NCBI GenBank assembly: GCA_001899445.1
Contig: MPOA01000006.1
Coordinates: 186,001-250,000 of the forward strand
Source: Candidatus Desulfopertinax cowenii
GTDB lineage: Bacteria > Bacillota > Desulfotomaculia > Desulfotomaculales > Desulforudaceae
DNA: 64,000 nucleotides
Reading direction: 5' to 3'
The position numbers and the translations under genes were made by a program. Under the pieces are notes generated by a model. The model was not told the origin of the DNA and ran no database searches. It was given only the letters and a program-made list of their open reading frames with translations. How positions within the stretch are numbered: the stretch's first letter is position 1; every line of letters begins with the position of its first letter. Of the stretch, positions 28,213 to 44,477 are shown piece after piece.

Positions 28213-28332
28213 TCTCTTATCAAGAGCGGCGGAGGGACTGGCCCAATGAAGCCCGGCAACCAGCCGGTGACCACGGTGGCACCGGCCAGGTGCTAAATCC
28301 TGCGGGAGAACGTTTCTCCCGGGAGATAAGGG
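28213..28332 (+). ncRNA. SAM-I (S-box) riboswitch
   Basis: The aptamer has the S-box hallmarks: closing helix P1 with CTTATC near the 5' end pairing GATAAG (28325-28330), then AGAGCGGCGGAGGGACTGGC, CCAATGAAGCCCGGCAACC, and GGTGCTAAATCCTGC. The P4-like hairpin GGGAGAACGTTTCTCCC closes it. In Firmicutes this element turns off sulfur-amino-acid genes when S-adenosylmethionine is high. Downstream is a 10-bp terminator hairpin and then a homocysteine synthesis gene, so the regulatory logic is consistent. Confidence 0.95.
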
Positions 28333-32287: not shown

Positions 32288-32500
32288 AAAAAACCCCACC
32301 GATGCCGTTGACCCCTCAAAGTTTCCTGAACCCCGTCTCAGAACAGGTGGGTGCCCTCCTGATTGCTTATCACTTCCCCCCTGCGGGGGCCTGTGAGCTA
32401 CAACCAGAGACCGGGCTCCCTATGTGTCGATGTTGGCTCAGAACTTCAAGGCTGGTCACGAGCACAGTAGGGTTTTAAAGTATTTTGTTTTTCTTGGTCT
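32288..32500 (-). ncRNA. ssrS: 6S RNA
   Basis: An RNA of about 212 nt that binds the sigma-A holoenzyme as a promoter mimic. Seen on the minus strand: a perfect-spacing promoter, a 5' arm GACCAGCCTTGAAGTTCTGAG, the characteristic GCTCACAGGCCCCCGCAGGG and AAGTGATAAGCAATCAGGAG on either side of the central bubble, CCTGTTCTGAGACGGGGTTC, and a terminator GGTGGGGTTTTTT. Location between aspS and the nifS region equals that of bsrA (6S-1) in Bacillus. Exact ends are estimated from the promoter and the T-run. It fills the 320-bp gap. Confidence 0.88.
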
Positions 32501-41961: not shown

Positions 41962-42261
41962 CTACATCAACAGTTGTTCTTCTTCTTTTAACTCCTTCAA
42001 CTCGATGAATTCCCAACCAAGCTTGGTGAGACTGCAGATCTTACTCTTGCCCTCCGCCATGACATCCACCAGTCCCAGGGCATACAACTGCATAATAATG
42101 TGGTCCAGTACCGCCCTTTTCACCCGGGAGGTGAGGGACAGCTCCTCCTTGTTCATCCGACCCTGTTCTCCCAGGGCGCGCAGCACTCTGGCGGCTTCCG
42201 GGGGCAGGCGATGATCCACCTGCATGAAGTACTCGGTCAGGGAAGTCGAAGAGCTGATCAT
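41962..42261 (-). CDS. Small winged-helix DNA-binding-like protein
   Basis: A 99-residue protein with LPPEAARVLRALGEQGRMNKEELSL, then SRVKRAVLDHIIMQLYALGLVDVM and SKICSLTKLGWEFIEL. The order helix, turn-helix, and C-terminal beta wing resembles MarR/ArsR-type winged helices. No ligand or target is evident. ATG 42261 has GAGGAGG 12 nt upstream. Not recognised at family level. Confidence 0.7.
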   Translation of the reverse strand: MISSSTSLTEYFMQVDHRLPPEAARVLRALGEQGRMNKEELSLTSRVKRAVLDHIIMQLYALGLVDVMAEGKSKICSLTKLGWEFIELKELKEEEQLLM

Positions 42262-42402
42262 CCTTGTCGTTCGCCTCCTCGCAGTAATTTTCAAATAGTA
42301 TGTACATTTTAGCTTTCATTAATAACTAAATAGTTATCTCGGCGCTGGAATTTAGCGGCAGAAAATTCTCTGATAATCCGGCGGCGAATGGTTATACTAT
42401 GG

Positions 42403-42845
42403 TCAAGGGCTCGTAATGGCCGAGCCTGAGATTACCGCCGGGTCTAAAACAAAGCTCGGCGGTAGTCAAGCCAAAGGTCGATATCGGGTCAAAATGGCTC
42501 GGTATCGGCTGGAGGTAAGGGCAGATGGTTTCTCGCCGGGCTAGGGTACAGTCCAACGACTGTATCCTGGTCATAAGAGAGACTCCCTGCCCGAGGCTAA
42601 GATTAAAGTGGCTGCTCAAGACTCAGGTTTATCCCTGAGAAAAGGGTTACTGGTAGTCGAGAGACCGCCAGTAGCTCTCAAGGTAGTCACTTTAATCAAG
42701 CAAAAGTCATCACAGGTTTCCAAAAAGGTCCGCGGCAGCCGAAAGGTTGTTGCGGGCTGTAAAGAAACCTATGGTGGCTGAAGCGCAGGCCATTACGGGC
42801 TCTTAAAAATAGAAACCCTTCTCTTTTGAGAAGGGTTTCTTGTTT
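42403..42845 (+). ncRNA. Large structured non-coding RNA (OLE-like candidate)
   Basis: A region of about 400 nt without a protein gene, folded into one closed structure. AAGGGCTCGTAATGGCC (42405-42421) pairs with GGCCATTACGGGCTCTT (42788-42804) as a 17-bp closing helix with two G-U pairs. Inside are helices 42433-42442/42455-42464, 42476-42491/42495-42510 (16 bp, five G-U), 42541-42553/42558-42570, 42601-42613/42685-42697 (13 bp) and 42714-42720/42764-42770. GNRA-type tetraloops lie at 42659-42662 (GAGA) and 42741-42744 (GAAA). The non-Watson-Crick pairs are G-U only if transcribed from the plus strand, which fixes the strand. A weak TATACT (-10) lies at 42393-42398. Size, closure and host fit the OLE RNA class, but no characteristic OLE protein gene is adjacent and the match was not computed. 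Confidence 0.85.
42811..42845 (+). terminator. Bidirectional terminator of the structured RNA and spoIVA
   Basis: AGAAACCCTTCTC and GAGAAGGGTTTCT form a perfect 13-bp stem with a TTTT loop. On plus, TTGTTT follows; on minus, TATTTTT follows. It therefore can end both the plus-strand RNA and the convergent spoIVA transcript. Confidence 0.88.
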
Positions 42846-42856
42846 ACGTTACGGGC

Positions 42857-44332
42857 TTAGATGATTATGCAAATCAGGCCTCCGCTTCCGTCATTGACGA
42901 TCCGCTGTAGCGTCTCCTGCAACTTCGACTGGGCGTTTTCGGGCATCCGGTGCAGTTTGTTTTGAATTCCCTCCCGGACCAGATCGTGCAGCGATTTACC
43001 AAAAATTTCAGATTCCCAGATCTTCCTTGGATCGTCTTCAAACTCGTTCAGGATAAACCGCACCAGTTCCTCGCACTGTTTCTCGGTACCGATGATCGGC
43101 GTGATCTCGGTGGTGATATCCGCCCGGATCACGTGCAGCGAGGGTGCGCTGGCCCGCAGCCGGACCCCGAACCGGTTTCCCTGCCGGATCAGTTCCGGTT
43201 CCTCTAGGTTCATTTCGTCCAGTCGGGGCGTCACCACGCCGTAGCCGGTCTCCCGCACCTCGTGCAGCGCAGCGGCGACCTTGTCGTACTCTCGCTTGGC
43301 CACGGCCAGGTCCCGCATCAGCCGGAAGAGGTCGTGATCGCCGGTCACCTCGAACCCGCTGACCTCACTCACGATCTCGTAGAACAGGTTCGGACGGGCC
43401 CTGACTTCGATCTGCGCCCAACCGGTACCCATGTTCAGCTCCCGCAGGGACGTTTCCGCAACGAAGTCGTATTCGGCCAACTGATCGGTCACCCCACGAA
43501 TATCCCGCACCCGCTGGACCTTCCGCAGAGCTTCGTGTACGGCCAGTTCAAACTTTTCACGTAGCCAGTGAGTTGGTTCCAATTCCTCCACCCAGAGCGG
43601 GATGTCGATCTTCACCTCGGTTACCGGGAACTCGTACAGGATCTCCTCCAGGATGGTCACCACGTCCCCCTGGCTCATTTCCAAGCAGTCCAGCGGTAGC
43701 ACCGGCACGTCGTACTTCGCCTGCAGCTCCCCGGCCAGGTGCTGGGTGTCCAGGGCATGGGGCTTGGTCGTATTCAGGACAACCAAAAAGGGCTTATTCA
43801 GTTGCTTTAGTTCATCCACCACCCGCTCCTCAGCCTCAACGTAGTTCTCGCGCGGAATGTCGGTGATGCTGCCATCGGTGGTCATCACCAGGCCGATGGT
43901 CGAATGGTCGGTGATCACCTTGCGGGTTCCTATCTCTGCCGCTTCCACAAACGGAATCGGCTCGTCAAACCAGGGTGTGGTCACCATTCTGGGCTCTTCC
44001 TCTTCTTCGTAGCCCAGGGCTCCTTCTACCCGGTATCCGACATTGTCAACCAGACGTACTTTGAGCTTGACCTGCCCGATCTGGATCTCCACGGCCTCGT
44101 TGGGCACGAACTTAGGTTCGGTGGTCATAATGGTGCGCCCCGTTCCGCTCTGCGGCAACTCGTCCCGTGCCCGTTCCTTATCGTACACGTCCTCAATGTT
44201 CGGGATTACGAGGAGTTCCATAAACCGCTTGATGAAAGTTGACTTACCCGTGCGTACTCCCCCGACTACACCGATGTAGATGTCGCCACCAGTGCGTTCG
44301 GCAATATCACGAAAAATATCGATCCTCTCCAT
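42857..44332 (-). CDS. spoIVA: Stage IV sporulation protein A
   Basis: An ATPase that polymerises around the forespore to form the basement layer of the spore coat. The 491-residue protein matches Bacillus SpoIVA in length (492) and motifs: IYIGVVGGVRTGKSTFIKRFM (Walker A GGVRTGKST about 24-32), DNVGYRVEGALGY and TTDGSITDIPRENYVEAEERVV. Start ATG 44332 is used because GAAGG lies just upstream and the longer in-frame ORF (to 44446) has no support. A sigma-E type promoter lies further upstream. Its stop is convergent with the structured RNA. Confidence 0.97.
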   Translation of the reverse strand: MERIDIFRDIAERTGGDIYIGVVGGVRTGKSTFIKRFMELLVIPNIEDVYDKERARDELPQSGTGRTIMTTEPKFVPNEAVEIQIGQVKLKVRLVDNVGYRVEGALGYEEEEEPRMVTTPWFDEPIPFVEAAEIGTRKVITDHSTIGLVMTTDGSITDIPRENYVEAEERVVDELKQLNKPFLVVLNTTKPHALDTQHLAGELQAKYDVPVLPLDCLEMSQGDVVTILEEILYEFPVTEVKIDIPLWVEELEPTHWLREKFELAVHEALRKVQRVRDIRGVTDQLAEYDFVAETSLRELNMGTGWAQIEVRARPNLFYEIVSEVSGFEVTGDHDLFRLMRDLAVAKREYDKVAAALHEVRETGYGVVTPRLDEMNLEEPELIRQGNRFGVRLRASAPSLHVIRADITTEITPIIGTEKQCEELVRFILNEFEDDPRKIWESEIFGKSLHDLVREGIQNKLHRMPENAQSKLQETLQRIVNDGSGGLICIII

Positions 44333-44477
44333 GAACCTGCCTTCCCCCCTTTTAATTTCAAGGTATACCGGGTCCCGCCAAAAGATATGTTCAAAGCCTA
44401 ACGCATCCCCCCCGAGACAATCCTCATGGGAAGAAACTTTTTCCATAGCCAGACTTTAACACTATATACATGAACCA

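Follow-up and report, generated by a model that had tools for sequence, protein, structure and literature searches.

A candidate forespore-transcribed structured RNA class in spore-forming Bacillota

A large structured RNA gene was identified in a 64,000-nt stretch of the genome of Candidatus Desulfopertinax cowenii (contig MPOA01000006.1, positions 186,001 to 250,000; hereafter the window). It is best explained, at a probability of roughly 0.55, as a stand-alone gene transcribed in the forespore that belongs to an uncatalogued class and works through its three-dimensional fold, the likeliest role being that of a scaffold or particle. Comparison of sequences across genomes revealed a conserved structure, a promoter and terminator of its own, a link with sporulating genomes, and repeated modules. 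An earlier note on this DNA had described the fold from the letters of the window; it missed the forespore promoter, the spread over the phylum, the presence of more than one copy per genome, and the recurrence of the wobble triple.

Extent and fold of the RNA

The RNA forms a single closed domain of six helices between positions 42405 and 42804 of the plus strand (MFE z = -20), in which helix P1 closes the domain around the hairpins P2 and P3 and the long arms P4 to P6; a terminator follows (Table 1). The 17-bp closing helix, the GNRA tetraloops GAGA and GAAA, and the terminator claimed in the earlier note were all present. The plus-strand MFE was -259.2 kcal/mol with a z of -20.5, and 0 of 100 shuffles folded equally well. 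The minus strand of the region reached a z of -9.5, and the plus strand was therefore identified as the structured one, as had been proposed. G-U pairs made up 30 of the 169 pairs in the fold of the window sequence. Inside the closing helix, 96 of 400 nt (24%) were unpaired, with no unpaired stretch longer than 10 nt, and the region ranked first in stability among 80 sampled 400-nt stretches of the window.

The three long arms were found to be similar to one another: each has a tip of the form CAGUC-loop-GAUUG, a GGUC/GGCU module, an internal loop, and an element resembling GUUCC/GGGAU. Other parts of the same RNA were also matched by models of the last arm, and the motif CGAGCNAAGR recurred in the linkers between arms. 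A 5-bp AGCCT/AGGCT helix of the single-sequence fold (42423-42427/42594-42598) derives from an insert present in 3 of 75 sequences; in copies without it, the linkers between arms are joined by short G-C pairs. The distal helix of P4 was absent in three close relatives (loci L006, L007, and L008, Candidatus Desulforudis among them), where a short loop takes its place and the other parts of the RNA are intact.

Protein coding was rejected, in agreement with the earlier note: the sole open reading frame is a chance one of 75 aa on the minus strand, and the helices covary. A DNA-level structure such as a cruciform was likewise rejected, as conserved G.U pairs are meaningful only in a plus-strand RNA. 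The terminator hairpin sequence was kept across genera of the class, and in the window it probably also serves the convergent spoIVA.

Table 1. Features of the RNA gene and its surroundings, in window positions.
Feature	Position	Strand	Remarks
sigma-F/sigma-G-type promoter	42371-42399	+	-35 TGATAAT (42371-42377), -10 GGTTATACTA (42390-42399)
Structured RNA gene	42405-42845	+	about 440 nt including terminator; conserved core 42405-42804
P1 closing helix, 5' strand	42405-42421	+	17 bp in window; 98.3% of cells paired, two-sided covariation at 11/16 pairs (75 copies)
P1 closing helix, 3' strand	42788-42804	+	pairs with 42405-42421
P2 hairpin	42430-42467	+	GGUC...GGCU module as cap; 98.7% paired, 13/16 pairs covarying
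P3 arm	42470-42516	+	AAA/GGA internal loop, GGUC...GGCU module as cap; main helix 97.8% paired, covariation at 12/15 pairs
P4 long arm	42519-42592	+	two stacked helices; 30/31 pairs covarying
P5 long arm	42598-42701	+	variable hairpin insert about 42617-42642; GNRA tetraloop 42659-42662; 30/35 pairs covarying
P6 long arm	42700-42784	+	GAAA tetraloop 42741-42744; 29/31 pairs covarying
GNU/GNU triples 1-3	42408-42410/42799-42801, 42441-42443/42454-42456, 42487-42489/42497-42499	+	
GNU/GNU triples 4-6	42540-42542/42569-42571, 42645-42647/42674-42676, 42727-42729/42756-42758	+	
Intrinsic terminator	42807-42845	+	12 bp 42812-42823/42828-42839 plus 5 A/U-rich pairs
spoIVA	42857-44446	-	convergent neighbour, outside the RNA gene; Pfam SpoIVA domains, E = 2.4e-118

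Covariation and recurrent wobble triples

Covariation, which the earlier note had proposed to look for in aligned homologues, was assessed in 75 copies of at most 85% identity (mean 58%). The helices were kept: 96.6% of cells pair in the consensus fold, with two-sided compensatory change at 127 of 150 pairs. Cells with a double change numbered 2131, compared to 534 in shuffles and 269-457 in slid controls. When the fold from the window sequence alone was applied to the same copies, 94.3% of cells were paired and 128 of 152 pairs had compensatory change, and an earlier set of 30 full-length copies aligned end to end gave compensatory change at 82 of 146 pairs.

Six helices carry one conserved GNU/GNU triple each, consisting of a G.U pair, a pair N-N', and a U.G pair. 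Both wobbles of each triple were kept in at least 80% of the 75 copies, while neighbouring pairs, and in most triples also the middle pair, varied freely. The six triples compare with an expectation of 0.46, and six were reached in 0 of 20,000 shuffles. As the wobbles are kept while the pairs around them covary, selection acts on the wobbles themselves, and the plus-strand RNA is therefore the active molecule. The triples suggest a contact site or metal site that recurs in the RNA. Conserved unpaired junction nucleotides, AAGA and AAAGG, adjoin strict wobble pairs.

Relation to known RNAs

Rfam 15 with 4227 models was searched with the RNA of the window and with 10 loci carrying homologues, and no family reached its gathering score; the best chance match, PyrR, had 28.4 bits at a cut-off of 54. 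This result of the full search suggested in the earlier note makes a new class probable, and agrees with its view that the RNA is not RNase P RNA, tmRNA, or SRP RNA. Its suggestion of an OLE-like RNA failed, with no match to the OLE model (RF01071) at the gathering score or at E <= 5. OLE RNA was found at a separate locus in 12 of 12 genomes tested, including the window's own, where the full OLE RNA lies at G000:C3:80146-80749 (E = 2.7e-146). No gene for the OLE-associated membrane protein was found beside the RNA, its neighbours being spoIVA and a gene for a small HTH-like protein. For GOLLD and ROOL, no match at the gathering score occurred in the window or the 10 homologue loci, and none at E <= 5 in the window region. 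Neither was there an Rfam-model match to the raiA motif RNA (ModT), which we take to be a member of Rfam. The raiA motif RNA is reported to be a structured, widely conserved RNA of Bacillota, studied in C. difficile (PMC11706538). Literature searches over open-licence papers yielded no description of the class. OLE, GOLLD, ROOL, and the other Rfam families were rejected as identities on the missing model matches and, for OLE, also on its other locus; the RNA is thus probably a new class and neither a member nor a variant of any of them.

Like the RNA described here, OLE is a large, ornate, plus-strand non-coding RNA of anaerobic Bacillota. It differs in sequence and architecture, with 616 model positions against a core of about 405 nt, and the present RNA has a forespore-type promoter and no fixed protein neighbour. 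ROOL and GOLLD share large closed folds, very high pairing, and an unknown function, but they occur in phages and prophages near tRNA islands, whereas this RNA is chromosomal. We know of no developmental promoter for OLE, GOLLD, or ROOL. By its sequence features, the RNA stands beside these large ornate RNAs with a predicted developmental promoter in addition. Oligomers or self-assembly have been reported for ROOL, GOLLD, and OLE, with RNA-only oligomers of ROOL and GOLLD resolved by cryo-EM (PMC12286853).

Bvs196/S547 of Bacillus is a forespore RNA whose gene, like the present one, stands alone and has a terminator and, immediately upstream, a promoter of the sigma-F/sigma-G kind (PMC9147052). 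It is 294 nt long with an MFE of -82 kcal/mol, lies between hinT and ecsA, and has been reported in Bacillus only, as an mRNA-binding regulator (PMC9147052). CsfG of Bacillus is cited as a forespore RNA under sigma-F and sigma-G (PMC9147052) and is described as a small RNA of endospore formers. The distinction of our RNA from Bvs196/S547 and CsfG is drawn from their descriptions.

Forespore-type promoter

The motif GGNNANAMTA lies 9-13 nt before the first bases of P1, measured to the closing-helix G as anchor, and is preceded at a fixed distance by NATAA. The test set comprised 50 non-redundant copies whose upstream 60 nt were less than 65% identical and whose flanks were non-homologous. In this set, the -10 element GG..A.A.TR stood directly upstream in 29 of 50 copies (shuffles: mean 0.85, maximum 5) and was absent from the next 48 nt upstream. 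The -35 element NATAA emerged unprompted at the correct spacing from the -10.

Standard sigma consensus strings were used for scoring. At least 85% of the sigma-F consensus was reached in 37 of 50 copies (0.6 expected) and of the sigma-G consensus in 24 of 50, while sigma-A, sigma-E, and sigma-K reached this level in 0, 0, and 1 of 50 copies, respectively. Promoters of the sigma-A, -B, -D, -E, -H, -K, and -L types were rejected, as their scores were far below those of sigma-F/G. In the 1.78-Mb genome of the window, the promoter of the RNA (TGATAAT-N12-GGTTATACTA) was the sole instance of the pattern TGATAAT-N10-14-GGNNANANTA. Among the SASP genes of this genome, used as positive control, two of three had a similar promoter, one of the two sites being read by eye. 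Elements of the forespore type thus stand at the correct spacing and at the predicted transcript start, as in the sigma-F/sigma-G regulon, and transcription should start at about 42404-42406. The motif identifies a predicted promoter of a type that is active only inside the developing spore. No choice was made between sigma-F and sigma-G because their consensus sequences and regulons overlap in C. difficile (PMC7438776).

Genomic context and copy number

The adjacency to spoIVA, a spore-coat gene, emphasized in the earlier note held for the window's family and a few others but was not general. Among 44 named loci, local synteny was observed within lineages and no neighbour gene was conserved beyond them. 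The gene spoVT lies directly upstream on the same strand in Desulfallas, Desulfotruncus, Desulfoscipio, and related MAGs (L128, L127, L119, L106, L129, L130, L088); two conserved GTAATGGTTT-like repeats were seen upstream of spoVT in these loci. The HTH-like protein just upstream of the RNA in the window (41962-42294, minus strand; weak TFIIE-alpha/TFE match) has homologues flanking the RNA in Desulforudis relatives and one Pelotomaculum MAG. Elsewhere in the window, a 6S RNA (RF00013, 106 bits) was found at 32289-32476 (minus) and a SAM-I riboswitch (RF00162, 89 bits) at 28214-28332 (plus).

Copies ranged from one in the window's genome to at least four. One single-contig genome carried four full-length dispersed copies, each with its own upstream promoter, and L060 held two in tandem (1204-1657 and 1712-2166), about 55 nt apart. 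No match was found in 72,556 plasmids and 50,697 phages, nor in IMG/VR for the exact RNA pattern. Because no neighbour is conserved and dispersed copies have their own promoters, the RNA is taken as a trans-acting chromosomal gene and not a leader. A leader or riboswitch role was excluded because no conserved same-strand downstream gene occurred in the 44 named loci; the RNA is followed by its own terminator. Cis-regulation of spoIVA was rejected, as this gene lies convergently on the opposite strand in a neighbourhood without conservation.

Distribution and association with sporulation

DNA search identified copies in 69 of 100 near relatives. Two covariance models, R1 and R2, were built from P6. 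R1, a model of this 3' arm, matched in 86 of 113 genomes of the class and in 151 of 398 genomes sampled over the phylum, and the broader R2 matched in 174 of the 398, under about 70 family labels. An iterated profile search showed 39 of 40 distant loci fetched to be full-length RNA, and of ten more R2 loci checked, nine spanned nearly the whole RNA and one only part. The genome counts are lower bounds because one genome with a weak R1 match (G017) has a complete copy. Named carriers include Desulforudis, Desulfofundulus, Desulfovirgula, Pelotomaculum, Desulfotruncus, Desulfoscipio, Desulfallas, Desulfocucumis, and Carboxydocella. A record titled 'Actinobacteria bacterium' (L123) has the same RNA neighbourhood as the Peptococcaceae MAG L091 and is probably a misassigned MAG.

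Co-occurrence with SpoIVA, present in 336 of the 398 genomes, was scored genome by genome by reading both lists. The RNA occurred in 169 of 336 genomes with SpoIVA and in 5 of 62 without (Fisher p about 5e-11, genomes counted as independent). Restricted to good genomes, the counts were 156 of 307 and 2 of 49, respectively (Fisher p about 4e-11, genomes counted as independent). Three of the five carriers lacking SpoIVA are genomes only 61-80% complete, and all 23 genomes gained with R2 have SpoIVA. About half of the SpoIVA-positive genomes had no model match, so that the RNA either is not generally required for sporulation or has diverged beyond the reach of the model.

Discussion

In the preferred reading, the gene would be transcribed in the forespore by sigma-F and/or sigma-G into an RNA of about 440 nt with one closing helix, two short hairpins, and three similar long arms. 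The RNA would act through its three-dimensional fold and not by pairing with mRNAs. As a scaffold, it would combine with copies of itself, with a spore protein, or with both to form a stable particle that stays in the spore, and the repeated wobble triples and linkers would be the contact points. Forespore expression, persistence in the spore, and the scaffold or particle role are what we infer from the promoter and fold. A scaffold or self-assembling particle, as found for OLE, GOLLD, and ROOL (PMC12286853), fits the conserved fold, which is rigid and repetitive. A more specific version, that a phylum-wide forespore RNA self-assembles via triples and linkers into a stored spore particle needed for resistance or revival, is put forward tentatively, with the odds somewhat against it.

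The main rival of the scaffold reading is a multi-site decoy, in which the triples titrate an RNA-binding protein or a part of RNA polymerase in the forespore, as CsrB or 6S RNA do. Six identical modules in separate helices, repeated linkers, and three like arms would suit such a role, and several copies per genome would increase the dosage. It is nevertheless unlikely, as no known protein site was recognised, an elaborate closed fold with exact junctions would be superfluous for a pure decoy, and 6S RNA is a separate gene in the window.

A base-pairing RNA of the forespore like CsfG or Bvs196/S547, regulating spore mRNAs by antisense, would have a promoter of the same kind. Conserved unpaired stretches are just 3-6 nt long, however; the longest loop, which measures 10 nt in the window, is variable in both length and sequence, and conservation sits in helices and junctions. 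The alignment of 75 copies held no accessible conserved seed of about 7 nt or more, which makes antisense action improbable.

G.U pairs are known metal sites, and the highly conserved AAGA and AAAGG beside them could belong to a ribozyme or a ligand- or metal-sensing RNA active in the developing or germinating spore. The conserved unpaired bases recur from arm to arm, which points to architecture and not to a single active site, and no gene is under cis control, leaving this reading little probability. A mobile or selfish element spreading through carrier genomes would account for the dispersed copies, the tandem pair in L060, and the variable neighbours, but is very improbable in view of the missing plasmid, phage, and IMG/VR matches, the synteny within lineages, and the strong purifying selection that acts on both the structure and the promoter. 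A divergent OLE RNA, for which a large ornate RNA in the same anaerobic Firmicutes might speak, is refuted by the absent model match and the true OLE elsewhere in all genomes tested, and has practically no probability left.

Only a few large bacterial RNAs of unknown role have been described (OLE, GOLLD, ROOL), and the unclear condition under which they act makes their biology difficult to approach. The class described here, which to judge from its promoter, fold, and carriers is probably a building block or a regulator of bacterial spores that has gone unrecognised, has a predicted compartment and time, the developing spore, and its function is therefore directly testable. The six conserved wobble triples are also of structural interest as a new recurrent RNA module. 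If the more specific version, with a stored particle needed for resistance or revival, is true, this would be the first developmental role for a large ornate RNA. As spore biology has been studied mostly on proteins and in Bacillus, a widespread component of the endospores of anaerobic Bacillota may have been overlooked.
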